A DNA stretch of 35,454 bases, from NCBI GenBank assembly GCA_947625495.1, contig CANQOQ010000015.1, forward strand, positions 1-35,454, in the 5' to 3' direction. The number at the start of each line of letters is the position of its first letter. The stretch's first letter is position 1. The stretch is from Candidatus Gastranaerophilales bacterium (lineage in GTDB: Bacteria > Cyanobacteriota > Vampirovibrionia > Gastranaerophilales > Gastranaerophilaceae). Under the pieces are notes generated by a model. It had not been told where the DNA came from. It ran no database searches and saw only the letters and a list, made by a program, of their open reading frames with translations. Shown here piece by piece: positions 1,938 through 24,308 of this stretch. A program made the translations under genes and the position numbers.

Positions 1938-3308
1938 TTATAAATTTATTTCAATCTCAAAAAAACGGTTCCAAGGGAAACTATAAACAGGGTTTATATT
2001 TTTTGATTTTAATTTTTTTAAAATTACTGTTTCAAATGGTTTTATGTTTGATTTTAAAATATCGGAAGATAAATTTTCACGTTTTTCTCTGATTTTACTT
2101 CTGATATTAGCCTGATACGCCCAGTCATCAAGGAATCTTATAATTTGAAGTTTTATAAATTCGTTTTTATTGGGATTCTTTGCCTTAAAATATGTCATAG
2201 CACAGCTTATAGCGGAACCTAAAGTATTACCCGTTGTGTTCCAAGCGGCATAACCTAAGAAATTTTTCCAATCCCCGATTTCAAAAAGCTTATTAACAAA
2301 ATTATTATCGGCTCCGTTTGCATTTAAAATATCCGCAATAAAATAGGATTTATCAGGCAGTATTAAATCCCCTTCAAACAATGGTTCATACTTATTCATG
2401 ACAAGTTCGCCCTGCTCATTTTTAAAATTATTAACAAGTAATATTAAATCAGCATTATTTACATCGGATACAAAAGCACCTGCAAGTTCAATTTGGGTTT
2501 CAACTGCTTCTTTAACCGAAATATCTTCATACTTTGAAATTTTATTAATACTGTCAGGATTCATATACACAGGGGCTATCTTAATTTTCTTATCACTGTT
2601 AACGGCTCTTGAAAAAAGAACTAAAGGTATTTCATCTGCGCCTGTTTTAATAAAAACATTATCAATATTAAAAGACAATTTTTTAAGCTCCTCTGCCTCC
2701 ATAACATTTAAGCCGAACTCTGCGCAATCATCTTTTGAAAATACCAATGTGTCAAAAACACCCTGTTTTTTTAGTTCTATATAATACTTGTTCAGGTTAA
2801 AATTACGGTTTCTTGTATTAAGGTAATCATTTAGAATCCAAGAGGGGATATCATTTGAAGTCTTATTACCTGTTTTGTGGTACTTATAAGAATACTTAAA
2901 GATTTTTTCTCCGTATAAACTCCAGTACTCTTTTTCTTCTTCATTGACATTATTATTTGAAATGCGCATAATACTTGAAGATGCGAATACTTTTATATTT
3001 TTTTCTTTTATTATTTGCACAAATTTATCAATACGTGATTTAACGATATCAAAAGAATCAGTGCTTCTTCTTGAAGGAATAAGCCCGCCATAAGCTATTG
3101 TATCTAAAGAAGCTATTAGAAAATCAGTATTTTCAAGAGATTCAATCCAGTTAATTATACCGTTTATATCGGAATTTTTAGTTAATCCTCCCAATAAATC
3201 CTCAGGCGGCAGTGATAAATTTATATTTTTATCCGATAAAGCCGTTTGCTTAATTAAATCATAACATACAGGACGGTTATCAATAGGAACAACTGTAACA
3301 TTATACAT
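1938..3308 (-). CDS. DUF4127 family protein
   Basis: The family has no known biochemical function that I can name. The 456-residue protein opens with VVPIDNRPVCYD, followed by LPPEDLLGG and a DTIAYGGLIPSRRS segment, which are hallmarks of DUF4127. No signal peptide or membrane segment is visible, so it is probably cytoplasmic. The start at 3308 is chosen because AAGGAGG sits 8 bases upstream. A start at 3326 would overlap the previous gene and lack such a site. The gene begins 4 bases after the stop of the WYL regulator, with its ribosome binding site inside that gene's end. The two are therefore almost certainly co-transcribed, and DUF4127 may be a target or partner of the regulators. Confidence 0.85.
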   Translation of the reverse strand: MYNVTVVPIDNRPVCYDLIKQTALSDKNINLSLPPEDLLGGLTKNSDINGIINWIESLENTDFLIASLDTIAYGGLIPSRRSTDSFDIVKSRIDKFVQIIKEKNIKVFASSSIMRISNNNVNEEEKEYWSLYGEKIFKYSYKYHKTGNKTSNDIPSWILNDYLNTRNRNFNLNKYYIELKKQGVFDTLVFSKDDCAEFGLNVMEAEELKKLSFNIDNVFIKTGADEIPLVLFSRAVNSDKKIKIAPVYMNPDSINKISKYEDISVKEAVETQIELAGAFVSDVNNADLILLVNNFKNEQGELVMNKYEPLFEGDLILPDKSYFIADILNANGADNNFVNKLFEIGDWKNFLGYAAWNTTGNTLGSAISCAMTYFKAKNPNKNEFIKLQIIRFLDDWAYQANIRSKIREKRENLSSDILKSNIKPFETVILKKLKSKNINPVYSFPWNRFFEIEINL

Positions 3309-3312
3309 TGAT

Positions 3313-4224
3313 TTATCCTCCTTCAAGATTTTGGAGAATATCGTCCGTCAGTTCAATAAAGTCATCAATTGCATCTTGAGGTCTTTCTATTTTGCAATTT
3401 TCTCCGTATTTTAAAAGTCTTTTAAGTAAACCTTCCCTGTCATTTCCATAATTAGAAACAATCAGATATCCGTTTTCAAAATTAATCATTTTTTCGTCTT
3501 CTTTTAGCTTATATGATTTAGCGAGTCTGCCATATAGTTTAAATACAACAGAATTAGAGCATTCAACATTTTTTATTCTTGATGGCATTTGTTTTAATGA
3601 AATAATAGAATTGAGATATATTTTTCTGTTTCTATGTTTTGATAAATCATTACATACGATTTGGAAATTTCCGTTTTTTTCTGTTATATGCTTAAGTTCA
3701 ACAATAATAGTTTCAATTGTTTTGTTAGATTTTGAGTATGTAAGTGAAATTTGCTGTCCTTCTGAAATAAGTTTTTCAATATAACTTATAAGGTTATTGT
3801 GATCATCAAGGTTTTCTGAATTTTGATTTAAAGCATCCAGAATTTCATTTTGGTTTTTTTCAGGAAAGTATTTTAAAATTTTATAAAAGAAATTTCTTAA
3901 TTGTGTTTCAATTTCATTATTGTGAAGTATTCTTATATATTTAATAAATGAAATTAAAACATCTTTTTCTTCATTAGTAAGATTAATTTTATAAAAAGCA
4001 TTTCTGAGTTTATAAATATTTTTACTTTTTTCAATTTTAAATCCTAAAATTTCCAAAGTATTAAAATATTTAATAAAAGCTTCTGCCGTATAAATATTTG
4101 CAAATAAAGAATTATCTTTAACTTCTTCCATAAGGTCAAATTTAGATAAATCTTTTTCCAACAGGATTTTTAATATTTCAAAAATTCTTAAAGCTGTATC
4201 ATAACTTTTATCAGATTTAGTCAT
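3313..4224 (-). CDS. WYL-type transcriptional regulator, second of a tandem pair
   Basis: The protein is 303 residues long. Its N-terminal 80 residues look like a winged-helix DNA-binding segment (YDTALRIFEILKILLEK). A middle beta-rich section around KNGNFQIVCNDLSKHRNRKIYL resembles a divergent WYL sensor fold, and a C-terminal LLKRLLKYGENCKIERP stretch matches the WCX extension. The W-Y-L triad itself is not kept. The start at 4224 (MTKSDKS) is preferred over 4230 because GAAGGG is spaced 8 bases from it. It overlaps the upstream WYL gene by 8 bases (ATGACTAA), suggesting translational coupling and perhaps a heterodimer, as in actinobacterial PafB-PafC. Assignment rests on overall pattern and context, so it is less certain than for its neighbour. 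Confidence 0.7.
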   Translation of the reverse strand: MTKSDKSYDTALRIFEILKILLEKDLSKFDLMEEVKDNSLFANIYTAEAFIKYFNTLEILGFKIEKSKNIYKLRNAFYKINLTNEEKDVLISFIKYIRILHNNEIETQLRNFFYKILKYFPEKNQNEILDALNQNSENLDDHNNLISYIEKLISEGQQISLTYSKSNKTIETIIVELKHITEKNGNFQIVCNDLSKHRNRKIYLNSIISLKQMPSRIKNVECSNSVVFKLYGRLAKSYKLKEDEKMINFENGYLIVSNYGNDREGLLKRLLKYGENCKIERPQDAIDDFIELTDDILQNLEGG

Positions 4225-5167
4225 TAACATAACCCTTCTTAATCAGCTTAATTTTATCAATAAGTTTTTGTTTAAAGAAATCAGGTGAAATAATTTTAAA
4301 ATCACTGCCAAATAGCAACAATCTTTGAACGAACCAAAACTCTTGACTAACATTAGCCTTAACAATAATATAGTCATCGGTTTTTTCAAGAATTTCTTCA
4401 TTAATTTCCTGTTTAAAATCAGCTAAAGCATTACCGATTAATTTATAAACCACCTCATAAGAATCATAGAATTGAGAATTTTTAATAATACTGACCGAGT
4501 TAATTTTTAAAATTCTTTCAACATTAAGAATACTAAATTTTTGATATTTAAAAACGTAGCACCATAAATAAAGTTTACCGTTTTCATAAACAACTCTTTG
4601 AGGAATAATATCAAGAATTTCGTTATCAAATTTAGGCGAGGAATAAAGAACCGAAACTTTTTTCCCGACTAAATTAGGATTAGATAATTCTTTATACAGT
4701 TTTTTTAAATTTTCCATAGGCGCAGAATCATGAACTTTATCAATAAGAACTTGATTTTCCGTCAGTTTCATAATTTTATCCAAGAGACTGTTAAGTATAT
4801 AAATATCTTCAATTTTAATATCCTGACTATATCTGTTTCTTAAATTAATAATTAAATCAATAACCTCTTCCGTAGAATTAAGAGTAAATGGCATATTTAA
4901 AAGTTCATATTTAAAATTATTTGAAGAACAGGGTCTTGAAATGTCGCAGCCTGCCATTCTTAGAGTTTTAATTGTCAGCCTGACTGTATCATCAGAGAAT
5001 GATTTAGACGTAATTTTATTGGTTTTTAAAATATCGGCGAGTTCTTGAACGGTTCTTCCTTTTTCAAGAAGAAGCGCAAAAACTAATAGGATTCTATATC
5101 CCGTAATACTAACCCATACTTTTTCGTTCTCTTTTAAGTTATTATTTATATTCTCAATCAAATGCAT
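4217..5167 (-). CDS. WYL-domain transcriptional regulator, first of a tandem pair
   Basis: This 316-residue protein has an N-terminal helix-turn-helix (about 22-90, with RILLVFALLLEKGRTVQELA), a WYL domain (about 165-225, with RVVYENGKLYLWCY and FSILNVERI) and a C-terminal WCX-like section (about 265-310, LLLFGSDFKIISP). Proteins of this layout sense a ligand, in some families nucleic acid, and control transcription. WYL pairs such as PafBC govern DNA-damage responses in actinobacteria. Whether this pair does the same is inference. It is the first gene of a minus-strand unit with the second WYL gene and DUF4127. An 18-bp palindrome 29 bases upstream is a plausible site for autoregulation. No strong ribosome binding site is visible before the ATG. 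Confidence 0.85.
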   Translation of the reverse strand: MHLIENINNNLKENEKVWVSITGYRILLVFALLLEKGRTVQELADILKTNKITSKSFSDDTVRLTIKTLRMAGCDISRPCSSNNFKYELLNMPFTLNSTEEVIDLIINLRNRYSQDIKIEDIYILNSLLDKIMKLTENQVLIDKVHDSAPMENLKKLYKELSNPNLVGKKVSVLYSSPKFDNEILDIIPQRVVYENGKLYLWCYVFKYQKFSILNVERILKINSVSIIKNSQFYDSYEVVYKLIGNALADFKQEINEEILEKTDDYIIVKANVSQEFWFVQRLLLFGSDFKIISPDFFKQKLIDKIKLIKKGYVND

Positions 5168-5195
5168 ACAGTAATATTTTATACAAATTTCCCAT

Positions 5196-5213
5196 AAAGT
5201 ATAAATACTTTAC
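5196..5213. promoter_or_regulatory. 18-bp palindrome in the divergent WYL / dCMP deaminase promoter region
   Basis: TAAAGTAT-AA-ATACTTTA is a perfect inverted repeat with 8-base arms, centred in the 114-base gap between two divergent transcription units. Its position 29 bases before the WYL gene start and its symmetry suit a dimeric regulator, most simply the WYL pair itself. No clear -35/-10 pair could be fixed on either strand, although a TGTATAAAAT stretch on the minus strand (5178-5187) is a possible -10 region. Operator role is inferred. Confidence 0.5.
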
Positions 5214-5281
5214 AATTCATAAATCTATATATGAAGATGTGAAAGAGTCTGTTAATATATAAATAAAGATAGGCGGATAAA

Positions 5282-5737
5282 ATGGTAAAAGAGTGGTGTG
5301 AATATTTTCTTGAAATAGCAAAAACCTGCTCAACAAGGTCAAATTGCTTAAGAGCACATGTGGGAGCTGTTATAGTTGGTGAAGATAAAAAAATAAAAGC
5401 AACCGGATACAATGGAACTCCTTCAAAGGTAATTTCCTGCTACGAAACAGGCAAATGTTACAGGATAGAAAATAATATTCCATCAGGCACTCAATATGAA
5501 ACATGCCGCAGTATCCACGCAGAACAAAATGCAATTATTCAAGCCGGACAAGACAGATGTAAAGATGCAACAATGTATATTTACGGTCATAATTTCATCT
5601 GCATTTTATGTAAAAGATTTATTGTCCAATCTGGGATAAAAGAAGTTTATTTGAGAAAAGATGATAATTCACCCATAGAACATATATCAGTTGAAGATAT
5701 AAGAAATGAATTATCAAAACAAGTTAATTTGAAATAA
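5282..5737 (+). CDS. dCMP deaminase-like zinc protein (ComEB family)
   Basis: Deoxycytidylate deaminase converts dCMP to dUMP for thymidylate synthesis in the cytoplasm. The 151 residues contain CSTRSNCLRAHVGAVIV (16-32), TGYNGTP (41-47), the metal and catalytic HAE (H79, E81) and CILC (C107, C110), so all zinc ligands and the proton-shuttling Glu are present. The residue before C107 is Ile where the family usually has Pro. Length fits the family. The ATG at 5282 follows AGGCGG by 5 bases. It lies 2 bases upstream of the lipoate-ligase-like gene and must be co-transcribed with it. It diverges from the WYL unit. A related riboflavin- or tRNA-type deaminase is less likely because of the dCMP-specific spacing of motifs. 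Confidence 0.88.
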   Translation: MVKEWCEYFLEIAKTCSTRSNCLRAHVGAVIVGEDKKIKATGYNGTPSKVISCYETGKCYRIENNIPSGTQYETCRSIHAEQNAIIQAGQDRCKDATMYIYGHNFICILCKRFIVQSGIKEVYLRKDDNSPIEHISVEDIRNELSKQVNLK

Positions 5738-19173: not shown

Positions 19174-19327
19174 ATATTTAATACAAAATTTAATCTAGTG
19201 TCGCACTCTACCACCGACTCCTCGTCGCTGTACGAGTGCTCACCTTTTCAATAACGTCACTCTCAAAATTTTACTCACACCACTTCGTGTCTTATCGTAA
19301 AATTTTGTTCGGACATATTTAATACAA
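19174..19327. repeat. GC-rich hairpin segment flanked by 13-bp direct repeats (MITE-like candidate)
   Basis: The 13-mer ATATTTAATACAA occurs at 19174-19186 and again at 19315-19327. Between them lie 128 bases that are clearly richer in GC than the flanks in their first half and carry three self-complementary elements: AGTG-TCG-CACT, CTCGT...ACGAG, and an 11-bp pair CAAAATTTTAC/GTAAAATTTTG enclosing a nested ACAC...GTGT. The second 13-mer contains the stop codon of the sigma gene. Identical flanks look like a target-site duplication from insertion of a small non-autonomous element at the gene's end. No terminal inverted repeats and no open frame were found. An interspersed repeat or a small RNA are alternatives. 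Confidence 0.5.
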
Positions 19328-20215
19328 GTAAGTATATCTTAAATTGAATGCACTATTATCTGTTTTAAGTTTATTAAGAGCTCTTGCTTCGGTTTGCCTG
19401 ATACATTCTTTTGTTACGCCATAAATTTTACCTATATCTTCCAGTGTTTGTTTTTGTCTGTCAAAAAGTCCAAAACGCATTATAATAACATTTTGTTCAC
19501 GGTCTTTAAGTTTATTAATCAAACCTAAAATATCTTTTTTCATAGATTCATATTCCAAATCATTTTGAAAAGATGATTTTTTATCTTCGATAATATCCGA
19601 TAATCTTACTTCGGAACCGTTATTAATTTCTATATCGGCATCAAGAGAAAGGGTTTGTTTATAAGCATTAAGGCAATTATTTATTCTGTCGTAATCAGTA
19701 TTCATTTTTTCTGCAATTTTCTCGGGATTAATATCAATACATCCTTGTTTTTCCAGTTCTGCTTTGATTTTTGAATATCTTGAAAGAGTTTCCTGAATAT
19801 AAACAGGAATTTTAAATGAATGCGATTGTTCTGAAATAGCTTTAAACATAGCCTGTTTAATCCACCAAGAGGCATAAGTTGAAAATCTGTATCCGAATTT
19901 CCAGTTAAATTTATCGACGGCCGCAATAAGTCCCAAATTACCTTCCTGAATCAAATCAATCATAGGAAGTTTGCTTGAGTGAATTACCTTTTTAGCAATA
20001 GTAATAACAAGTTTAAGATTTGCCTTTATTAATTTTTGTTTAGCTGCAATATTTCCCTCTTTAGCCAATCTTGCAGTTTCTTGTTCTTCTTCCAATGTAA
20101 GATTTTTGTATTTTGATATTTCTTTTATGTATGCATTTAAGTCTGCATCTGCAAATAAAGGATTGGAAACTACTTCTTTTTCCGTTTCCGATGAATAAAC
20201 ACATTTTAAAGCCAT
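19319..20215 (-). CDS. RpoD-like (group 2-type) sigma factor with altered region 2.4
   Basis: A sigma-70 factor of 298 residues with a short N-terminus, region 1.2 (LNAYIKEISKYKNLT), region 2 (DLIQEGNLGLIAAVDKF, then YRFSTYASWWIKQAMFKAI), region 3 and region 4.2 (TLEDIGKIYGVTKECIRQTEA). It lacks the large region 1.1 of primary sigma factors, suggesting a non-essential paralogue. In region 2.4 the usual QAITRAIADQ reads QAMFKAISEQ, so the Thr that helps read the -10 element is Phe. AGGAG lies 7 bases before the ATG. The leader is about 134 bases long with a 7-bp hairpin. Its stop lies inside one of the 13-bp direct repeats. It is divergent from the large helicase gene. Confidence 0.9.
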   Translation of the reverse strand: MALKCVYSSETEKEVVSNPLFADADLNAYIKEISKYKNLTLEEEQETARLAKEGNIAAKQKLIKANLKLVITIAKKVIHSSKLPMIDLIQEGNLGLIAAVDKFNWKFGYRFSTYASWWIKQAMFKAISEQSHSFKIPVYIQETLSRYSKIKAELEKQGCIDINPEKIAEKMNTDYDRINNCLNAYKQTLSLDADIEINNGSEVRLSDIIEDKKSSFQNDLEYESMKKDILGLINKLKDREQNVIIMRFGLFDRQKQTLEDIGKIYGVTKECIRQTEARALNKLKTDNSAFNLRYTYLY

Positions 20216-20483: not shown

Positions 20484-23400
20484 ATGTTAGTTCAGGGAAG
20501 CATTAATTCACAAAAAGAAAAAATTCTTTTAAATAAATACAAAGAACTCATAAATTCGGGAGTTAATGCCGAAGAAATTTTAGTGCTTAAATTAAATCCT
20601 TATAAAAAAAATATATTTTATGAAAAATTAATTAAGGAAATTCCCGAAGATAAATTAAAAAATCACAAAATAATGACTCTGTACGGTTTAAGCTATAACA
20701 GCTTCTATGATAATAAAGAATACATAAAAAAATTAATAAAAACCGATGATGATAAAGAGATAAATTTATGCGGACTTGAGGTCTCCCAATATATATTTAA
20801 AAAAAGCATAAAAGAAGCTGATTTTTCCGACTACATATCAAAAGTAAATCTTCTTCACCAATTATTCAGAAGATATTCATTGATAGTACAGAATAATCTC
20901 AGTAATGAAGAAATAGTAAAACGTTCTTGCATATTAAAAGAATCGTTTTATAAAGATGCGCAAAAAGCAATTAATGATTATAAGGTTAAAACAATAGAAT
21001 ACAGAAGTTTCGATTATTTAAGACAACTTGCCATATTACCTTTAATTCAAAAGGATACCGATTACTTTAAAGGAATAAAATACTTAATGGCAGATGATGC
21101 GGATGAAATGCCTTATATATTATTTCAGTTTATATATAATCTTATTCCTCAGTTAAATGATTACATAATCATATACGATAAATACGGTTCAACCAGAAGC
21201 GGATACTTATGTGCATATAAGGGAGGAATTAATGAATTAAAAAAAAGATTCTCGCCGAAGGAAATAATTTTAAAAGACAATAGTCATTTTAAAAAAACAG
21301 CCCAAACATTATACGAAAATATAAAAGACGGCAAAAAAACCGATATATCAGAATTTAAATATATAAATACAACCAAACGATTGGAAATGGCAGATATTGT
21401 CATTGAGGATATTAAAAAACTGATAAGTTCGGGAGTAAAACCTGATAATATTGCTCTTATTACACCTGTTGCCGATGAGGTGCTTATTCAATATTTAACA
21501 AATAATAATTTTGGAATAAATTTTCAAGTTATTTCAGGTAATACAAAATTAGCGGAAATAAAAATAATAAAATATATTATTTCTCTGCTTAAAGTTGCAA
21601 ATTCAATAAAAATAAATGACTACGAATTAAAAAGTATACTTGTTGAATTTCTTAAGATACCTTATAGAAAATGTTTTAAGATAATAGAAAAGTATAAAAA
21701 AACAAATGAACTAATAAAATCAGAATTTGACAATGAAATATACAGTGAAAAGTATATAAAACTTTTGAGTATAATTAAATCTATAAATCCCGAAATACAC
21801 TCACTAACGGAACAAATTAAGATAATTCGCTCTAATTTATTGGAAATCGAAACAGAAGAAGAAATAAAGAAATATGATTTCTTCATAAAAGAAGCGCAAA
21901 GTTTTGAAACAGCATTTTCCTCTTCAAGTGAAAGCATAGTTAAGGATTTTATCAATCAAACGGAGAACAGTATAATAAGTGAAAACCCTGTAAATTCATT
22001 CTCATTAAAAGAAAACAGCGTTATATTAAGTTCAATTCAAAAATTATCCGATTATGAAATAAATACAGATTACCAAATGTGGCTTGATATATCTAATTGT
22101 GACTGGTTTAAACAAGACACGGGAACATTATATAATTCTTGGGTCTTTAATAAAGACTGGAATAAAAATACATATTCTGCAGAAGATTGTATTAAATTAA
22201 CAAGGGAAAAGACAGCTTCAACGGTTCGAAAATTAATATTATGTGCAAATAAAGAAATCAGATTTTACTCCAGTATATATGATAATTTCGGAAATGAGAA
22301 TTTTTCGGGGCTTTCTGATTATCTTGAAATAAGGAAACAAACAAAAAAAGAATATAACATAACTCCAAGGGAAGACCAAAAACCGGTATTGGAATATAAA
22401 GAAGGGAAAATGGCGGTAACGGCTGTTCCAGGGGCAGGTAAAACAACAATTTTACTTGCTTTAATAATAAAACTTCTAACATCCGGCGTAAATCCAAATA
22501 ATATATTCGTTTTAACCTATATGGAATCTGCCGCAAAAAACTTTAAAGATAAAATAAAGCAATATTTTGATGAATCAAATGTAATGCCAAATATTTCAAC
22601 AATCCACGGACTGGCTCTCAGAATTATTAAAGAGAACGGAAATTATATTAAAATTGGACTTGATGAAGATTTTGACATCTGTGACGACATTATTAAAGAA
22701 AAAATTATAAAAGAAATTTTCTATAAATTAAAAATTTCGGATGAAAAATATGAAAATTACTTAAAAAGCATTTCTATTGTTAAATTAAGCGGATTAAATA
22801 AGGAATTCAAATCAAAATACTCTGATATACAAGAGTTTTATAATTTTCTCAAATTATACAATCAAACACTAAAGCAAAAAAATTTAATAGACTATGATGA
22901 TATGCTTAAATATTCCGTTTTGATATTAAAGACAGATAAAGAAACAAGAGAATACTATCAAAATCTGTGTAAATATATAATTGAAGATGAAGCTCAAGAT
23001 TCAACGGATATTCAACAGTCATTAATCAATATTCTTTCACAAAAGCATAAAAATATAGTAAGGTGCGGAGATATAAACCAATCTATAACTTCTACTTTCA
23101 CAAATTCTAATATAGAAAGCTTTAGAAAATTTATAAATGAAAATAAAAAAGTAGAGATGATCTCATCTCAAAGATGTGCAAAGCCTATTTACGAGCTTGC
23201 AAATAAAATGATTAAAGCGGCACAGACAAATGAAAATACAAAAAACGCTTTTTATGATATATCCGTAAAAGGAACACCAAATAATCCAAAAGATACTAAA
23301 GAGCCTGAGTATATTGTTTTTGATAGTGAAAAAGAAGAAAAGACTTTTATTTTAAATAAGATTAAAGAAATAAAGAAAAATACCCCCTGCTCTTCAATCG

Positions 23401-24308
23401 CAATACTTACAAGATTAAATTCTCAAGTAAATGATTATAATGAATTTTTAAACTCTAACGGAATAAAAACTGCAGTAAGAACGGATTGTTTAGCTCAAAA
23501 AAGAATATATAAATACATATTTGCCGTATTAAAAATAATTGAAAATCCATTAAACAATGATTTAATAACAGATTTAATTGAATTATACTCAAATAATTAT
23601 GCGAAAAATATAAAAGAAGATGCACAGGAATATATAAAAACCCTCAAATCTCCGTTTATAAATATTAATGAAGATGACATACAGAACGAATTATTAGTAC
23701 AAATATACTGGGATATAAATTACTGGCTTAATAATTCAACCTTGCCGATAGATGAAACAGCACTAAAAATAGGATTATTTTATTCCAAAAATATAACAGA
23801 TAAATCTAATACATACCTTATTTCTACTTTTATTAAACGAATAAAAAGTGAAAATGAATCAACGGAAGAACTGTTAAAAAGATTAAATTATGATTCACAA
23901 AGACCTTTAAGCGCATACAAGTTTTTTGATGATAATTTGCAGGATGAAAATAACATTAATATAATGACAATGCATAAATCAAAAGGAGATGAATTTGATT
24001 ATGTATTTATTCCGCAATTAAATGAAGATAATTATTCCATAAGTAAAGAGAATGTAAAAATAAAAAGTTCGGGACATTTTTTAGAAGCAGTAAAAAATTC
24101 TATATATAAATGCGGAATAAAGCCCGTAGAACAATTAAAAAAAGAACAAACAGAAGAAACTTTAAGGCTTTTATATGTAGGAGTGACAAGAGCTAAAAGA
24201 GAGTTATATTTAACAACTGCCAAAAGATATCAAAAGCGTCGTAATACTTGTGAATGTGATTTTTTCATAAATTTATGTAACTATAGAAATAAAATTAATG
24301 TAATTTAA
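20484..24308 (+). CDS. Giant UvrD/PcrA-like helicase with a degenerate N-terminal helicase half
   Basis: The C-terminal half (about 625-1265) is a complete superfamily 1A DNA helicase: AVPGAGKTT (Walker A, near 647), STIHGLA, DYDDML, EDEAQD (Walker B, near 834), GDINQSI, SQRC, a motif V region with MTMHKSKGDEFDYVF near 1161 and LLYVGVTRAKREL near 1231. The N-terminal 600 residues look like a second, dead copy: MLVQGSINSQKEKILL where GxxGxGKT is expected, ADDADE in the Walker B place, and IIYDKYGSTRSGY where the GD-QSI motif would be. Such dead/live pairing recalls AddB-AddA, but no nuclease domain follows. The likely role is DNA repair or restart in the cytoplasm. The start has no ribosome binding site. 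Confidence 0.88.
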   Translation: MLVQGSINSQKEKILLNKYKELINSGVNAEEILVLKLNPYKKNIFYEKLIKEIPEDKLKNHKIMTLYGLSYNSFYDNKEYIKKLIKTDDDKEINLCGLEVSQYIFKKSIKEADFSDYISKVNLLHQLFRRYSLIVQNNLSNEEIVKRSCILKESFYKDAQKAINDYKVKTIEYRSFDYLRQLAILPLIQKDTDYFKGIKYLMADDADEMPYILFQFIYNLIPQLNDYIIIYDKYGSTRSGYLCAYKGGINELKKRFSPKEIILKDNSHFKKTAQTLYENIKDGKKTDISEFKYINTTKRLEMADIVIEDIKKLISSGVKPDNIALITPVADEVLIQYLTNNNFGINFQVISGNTKLAEIKIIKYIISLLKVANSIKINDYELKSILVEFLKIPYRKCFKIIEKYKKTNELIKSEFDNEIYSEKYIKLLSIIKSINPEIHSLTEQIKIIRSNLLEIETEEEIKKYDFFIKEAQSFETAFSSSSESIVKDFINQTENSIISENPVNSFSLKENSVILSSIQKLSDYEINTDYQMWLDISNCDWFKQDTGTLYNSWVFNKDWNKNTYSAEDCIKLTREKTASTVRKLILCANKEIRFYSSIYDNFGNENFSGLSDYLEIRKQTKKEYNITPREDQKPVLEYKEGKMAVTAVPGAGKTTILLALIIKLLTSGVNPNNIFVLTYMESAAKNFKDKIKQYFDESNVMPNISTIHGLALRIIKENGNYIKIGLDEDFDICDDIIKEKIIKEIFYKLKISDEKYENYLKSISIVKLSGLNKEFKSKYSDIQEFYNFLKLYNQTLKQKNLIDYDDMLKYSVLILKTDKETREYYQNLCKYIIEDEAQDSTDIQQSLINILSQKHKNIVRCGDINQSITSTFTNSNIESFRKFINENKKVEMISSQRCAKPIYELANKMIKAAQTNENTKNAFYDISVKGTPNNPKDTKEPEYIVFDSEKEEKTFILNKIKEIKKNTPCSSIAILTRLNSQVNDYNEFLNSNGIKTAVRTDCLAQKRIYKYIFAVLKIIENPLNNDLITDLIELYSNNYAKNIKEDAQEYIKTLKSPFININEDDIQNELLVQIYWDINYWLNNSTLPIDETALKIGLFYSKNITDKSNTYLISTFIKRIKSENESTEELLKRLNYDSQRPLSAYKFFDDNLQDENNINIMTMHKSKGDEFDYVFIPQLNEDNYSISKENVKIKSSGHFLEAVKNSIYKCGIKPVEQLKKEQTEETLRLLYVGVTRAKRELYLTTAKRYQKRRNTCECDFFINLCNYRNKINVI

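Follow-up and report, generated by a model that had tools for sequence, protein, structure and literature searches.

The pairing of a working helicase with a dead one is known from AddB-AddA, in which the two are separate subunits. Here, we report that a gut relative of the cyanobacteria (Candidatus Gastranaerophilales) encodes both in one 1,274-residue protein, a tandem of two UvrD-type SF1A helicase cores in which the C-terminal core keeps its motor motifs and the N-terminal core is predicted to retain the complete fold but is dead. Relatives encode the same two helicases plus an Fe-S PD-(D/E)XK nuclease, and together the three look like an unrecognized machine for processing broken DNA ends in the cyanobacterial phylum. 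Our preferred reading, to which we assign a probability of roughly 0.62, is that the protein is the helicase part of a split and re-fused AddAB-type DNA-end resection machine; this function is inferred.

The window analyzed is a stretch of 35,454 nucleotides (GenBank assembly GCA_947625495.1, contig CANQOQ010000015.1, positions 1 to 35,454, forward strand). A sequence-only reading had claimed that the C-terminal half carries every SF1A motif, that the first 600 residues follow the same order of elements with ruined Walker A, Walker B, and motif III-like positions, and that the chain has no nuclease domain. Below, genomes, contigs, loci, families, and genera of our comparison set are numbered with the prefixes G, C, L, f, and g. 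The features are as follows.

20484..24308 (+): whole gene, 1,274-aa dead-live SF1A helicase fusion
20484..22343 (+): dead helicase half, residues 1 to 620, predicted complete UvrD-like fold
20496..20519 (+): degenerate Walker A GSINSQKE, residues 5 to 12
21093..21107 (+): degenerate Walker B DDADE, residues 204 to 208
22344..24305 (+): live SF1A helicase half, residues 621 to 1274
19319..20215 (-): divergent neighbor, sigma-70 family factor

A live motor and a dead helicase fold in one chain

The C-terminal half (core at residues ∼625 to 1250) matches PF00580 at residues 631 to 886 (E value, 3.8e-45) and UvrD_C (PF13361) at residues 1113 to 1247 (1.1e-27), and it carries GAGKT, IIEDEAQDS, GDINQ, and VTRAK. 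We aligned 125 rows (the window plus fetched loci; 121 distinct sequences, as a few copies repeat), in which GKT, DE..D, and GD..Q of this half are present in all rows and motif VI TRA in all but one gap and one substitution. The chain ends about 35 residues after motif VI, and Pfam lists no nuclease domain in it.

Searched as a single sequence, the N-terminal half of the window protein hit no helicase family in Pfam, NCBIfam, or PADLOC; taken alone, therefore, the claim could not have been proven, and only relatives and profiles revealed the relationship. All 58 relatives searched have some match to the protein, and full-length orthologs of 1,220 to 1,380 aa occur in nearly all genera of the order, as also seen in a scan of genome contigs with order-specific patterns. 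One genome (G273) holds two copies of the fusion gene, on contigs C28 and C18 (L216). Of 29 orthologous N-halves, 13 hit PF00580 (best, 3.2e-10), and one relative's N-half hit ADDB_N below the cutoff (5.7e-5 in one search and 2.1e-4 in another). The N-half profile aligned collinearly with the C-half profile (hhalign probability, 97; the E value there is for one comparison), whereas a search of the N-half profile against PDB sequences gave only a weak match to Rep (E value, 1.3) that was useful only to register motifs.

The presence or absence of RecA-like folds in the N-half had been set in advance as the test of the claim, and the outcome supported it. An AlphaFold model of residues 1 to 622 (pLDDT, 89.7; pTM, 0.87), compared using Foldseek and VIA-align, matched UvrD, Rep, and PcrA (best Z, 30.4; rmsd, 4.8 over 473 residues), AdnB (Z, 24.7; rmsd, 4.5 over 575 residues), and AddB (Z, 22.5 to 23.1; rmsd, 5.4 to 5.8 over 562 to 577 residues) along its whole length. 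The alternative that the N-half has another fold is thus rejected by the model and its structural matches.

The degenerate motifs were confirmed by position. In other families of the order the N-half begins MYIEGPLKSGKT or MFIDAPLGSGKT, a textbook Walker A, so that GSINSQKE corresponds to GPLKSGKT/APLGSGKT in relatives. DDADE aligns with DEYQD of Rep; the catalytic Walker B glutamate is Asp in 122 of 125 rows and never Glu, and the motif III glutamine position is Gly in 125 of 125. The Walker A has decayed in steps: it is intact in families f2, f3, f4, and f7, is reduced to lysine/arginine-threonine without the glycine in most f1 genera, and is lost in f6 and in much of the window's genus. However, the N-half is nearly as conserved as the C-half (mean column identity, 51% versus 55%) and has many invariant residues, and so it is not a decaying remnant. 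The observation made from the sequence alone is therefore confirmed.

Longer versions of the protein in G132, G285, and G243 at first resembled inteins but carry an inserted DUF559 domain. In L206, L207, and L217, this endonuclease domain (PF04480; 1.7e-36 for L206) is inserted in frame at the same place of the dead half in two genera (residues about 255 to 275), flanked by stretches such as LTPPPNPLPQGAG. Similar LTPHPN-type inserts sit in the small nucleases, described below, of L122 and L126.

A linked nuclease in relatives

A PDDEXK_1 search of the relatives revealed a stand-alone gene of ∼225 aa directly downstream of the fusion in several families. In 73 distinct loci it is the next gene, and in 69 of these it overlaps the helicase stop, usually by 4 to 11 bases. 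The product carries GxxxH, an invariant D, DxK, QxxxY, and four cysteines arranged C + CX2CX5C, as in AddB; these are like the AddB/Cas4 iron-sulfur staple (PMC3466216). A model of one member (pLDDT, 86.8) matched the AdnA nuclease (Z, 16.2), the Cas4-family protein ACE1 (Z, 15.2), and the AddB nuclease (Z, 12.8). Elsewhere in the order the gene is unlinked, and in L198, L199, L202, L204, L209 to L211, and relatives (genera g34, g35, g38, and g40) it matches the profile only to about position 163 to 201 of 225, so that its C-terminal Cys region may be shortened or lost. The six order members without the helicase (G037, G049, G052, G172, G336, and G341) also lack the nuclease.

None of the genomes of the window's genus that we examined has a stand-alone copy. 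The absence of a nuclease noted from the sequence alone is thus true here but is a derived, local loss; in most of the order the next, usually overlapping, gene is this AddB/Cas4-type Fe-S nuclease. The only PDDEXK_1 gene of the window's own genome encodes a 1,025-aa UvrD-nuclease chain. This single chain (L152, positions 2250 to 5324, contig C47; 1,024 aa in the locus listing) combines a UvrD-like helicase with a C-terminal PD-(D/E)XK nuclease ending in a CX2CX5C motif, a second possible end-processing enzyme in this genome.

The sigma-70 family gene stands divergently beside the helicase gene in the window (19319 to 20215; assigned by Pfam) and, judging from ORF tables, apparently also in three other families (L148, 8775 to 9698; L151, 7243 to 8175; L159, 8962 to 9921), with a ribosomal protein S1-like gene beyond it in the window and L148. 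This setting bears on whether the genes could be an anti-phage defense module, either Gabija-like (UvrD plus nuclease) or Cas4 linked. In PADLOC, the C-half hit many GajB models and the small nuclease hit Cas4 models, but the helicase hits were generic. No GajA or cas gene was recognized beside the window gene, whose neighbors are the sigma-70 factor and a penicillinase-repressor-type regulator; the other window ORFs read as housekeeping genes. Given this and the near-universal conservation across the order, we consider a defense role very unlikely.

Origin of the fusion

In other Cyanobacteriota, the dead half exists as a separate protein of 656 to 709 aa with Walker A at its N terminus, which aligns to the N-half over full length (hhalign E value, 9.5e-46), far closer than the N-half is to the C-half (3.2e-11). 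Although the two halves are homologous and collinear and the loss of Walker A is progressive between lineages, the stand-alone orthologs and the conservation of the N-half refute a tandem duplication inside the gene with one functionless, decaying copy. Rather, the dead half is a separate protein family, found across the phylum (to which searches with its profile were confined), that became fused to its partner.

The live half falls in a clade (support, 100/100) with one UvrD-like protein per examined cyanobacterium, separate from PcrA/UvrD. In one outgroup genome (G107), the dead helicase, the live helicase, and the nuclease are three consecutive genes overlapping by 4 and 13 bases, in the order seen in the fusion operon. 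In G092 the live helicase and nuclease overlap, and the dead helicase is on another contig. So fusion followed an older three-gene state. In cyanobacteria proper, the three genes are unlinked where checked (G176).

Distribution relative to RecC and AddB

RecC (PF04257) was found in none of the 58 relatives, although the control rang in Escherichia coli, and it is absent from the order. Across 292 genomes of the phylum, 40 have RecC, 35 of them in a single cyanobacterial family (f35). None of those 35 appears among the matches for the dead helicase or the nuclease, while most other cyanobacterial families show both. Because f35 is one family, this complementary distribution counts as little more than one evolutionary event, and the five further RecC genomes (in f12 and f26) do not follow it cleanly, four of them having a weak dead-helicase match. 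ADDB_N scored over the cutoff in 5 of 58 relatives, one being the class-level outgroup G057, which has a canonical AddB-AddA pair instead (L224, 7577 to 14091); no AddB was found in G000.

Proposed role

We propose that the dead helicase, live helicase, and nuclease form an AddAB-type end-resection machine whose parts were reshuffled. In this view, the C-half would be an ATP-driven 3′-to-5′ single-strand motor that unwinds DNA from a broken end, and the N-half, having lost the residues for ATP hydrolysis, would act like the AddB N-terminal domain, receiving the strand from the motor, guiding it, and possibly reading its sequence. In most relatives the small nuclease would trim the strand leaving this channel, as the C-terminal nuclease of AddB does. 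In the window's genus, where the nuclease gene has been lost and the dead half has decayed further, the protein probably unwinds ends and leaves cutting to another nuclease, or it has been reduced to an unwinding or strand-scanning role. Inactivated helicase domains of AddB and RecC are thought to scan single strands for Chi (PMC4824097), and AddB still binds ATP at a second site that modulates Chi recognition (PMC4824097), which would explain why several families keep Walker A in the dead half. Our analysis establishes the predicted fold, the state of the motifs, the fusion, the operon, and the joint distribution, whereas complex formation, polarity, substrate, and sequence reading are inferred without biochemical or genetic data. 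The interpretation offered by the sequence-only reading, a dead/live helicase pair comparable to AddB-AddA but in one chain, is supported, whereas the DNA-reading role that it suggested for the dead half remains an inference.

Two other roles appear less likely. The protein could be an accessory replication/repair helicase with a UvrD/PcrA/Rep-like job, such as clearing stalled forks or transcription complexes, in which the dead half is only a regulatory or dimer-mimicking domain. The C-half is most similar in profile to PcrA/UvrD, UvrD-type helicases can act as dimers, and the window's genus has no linked nuclease. Yet, PcrA/UvrD-type paralogs are also present in the same genome, the C-half falls in its separate clade, and the overlap with, and joint absence of, the nuclease in relatives argue otherwise. 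Alternatively, the dead half could be a nucleotide-sensing or protein-docking domain without any DNA role, given that Walker A is kept in several families while the catalytic residues are gone. We consider this unlikely because the whole SF1A fold, with both RecA domains and inserts, is kept and because AddB and RecC provide precedents for DNA binding there (PMC4824097).

More tentatively, and with somewhat less than even odds, the trio of dead SF1A helicase, live non-PcrA SF1A helicase, and Cas4/AddB-type Fe-S nuclease may be the RecBCD/AddAB equivalent of most Cyanobacteriota, including model cyanobacteria reported to lack recB, recC, or recD; in gut Gastranaerophilales it would have been fused and, in one genus, stripped of its nuclease. 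Searches of the open-access literature found no paper describing a fused AddAB or this cyanobacterial trio. The locus and its relatives thus point to a concrete candidate made of three genes, two of which are missing from the cyanobacterial family that has RecC. They also offer a natural series of a dead helicase domain in different stages, with Walker A intact, partly degenerate, or lost and with the nuclease linked, unlinked, or lost.

Comparison with known systems

Like AddAB of Bacillus subtilis, the system pairs a dead SF1A domain (AddB, which keeps a nucleotide site) with a live SF1A motor (AddA) and, in relatives, an Fe-S PD-(D/E)XK nuclease with four cysteines. It differs in that the two helicases form one chain in Gastranaerophilales and are separate only in outgroups, the motor carries no C-terminal nuclease as AddA does, and the Fe-S nuclease is not in the chain of the dead helicase, being a separate protein in relatives. 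The score against the NCBIfam AddA equivalog TIGR02785 is also only 102 bits (cutoff, 707.65). With mycobacterial AdnAB, the system shares the superposition of the N-half model on AdnB and of the small nuclease, its best match, on the AdnA nuclease, but AdnA and AdnB are separate chains, each with its own motor and nuclease domain, and the window protein is a single chain without one. RecBCD likewise pairs a dead helicase (RecC, which also has a dead nuclease) with a live one in end processing, but the RecC family is absent from all 58 relatives, and the RecC-bearing family f35 lacks the dead helicase and nuclease found here. PcrA, UvrD, and Rep share the fold and motifs of the C-half, which nonetheless scores 166.7 bits against an equivalog cutoff of 911.2 and falls in a separate clade. 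Finally, the small nuclease of relatives shares the Fe-S cysteines and PD-(D/E)XK core of Cas4 family nucleases but is encoded with helicases rather than with cas genes, and its TIGR00372 score of 55.7 is under the cutoff of 65.
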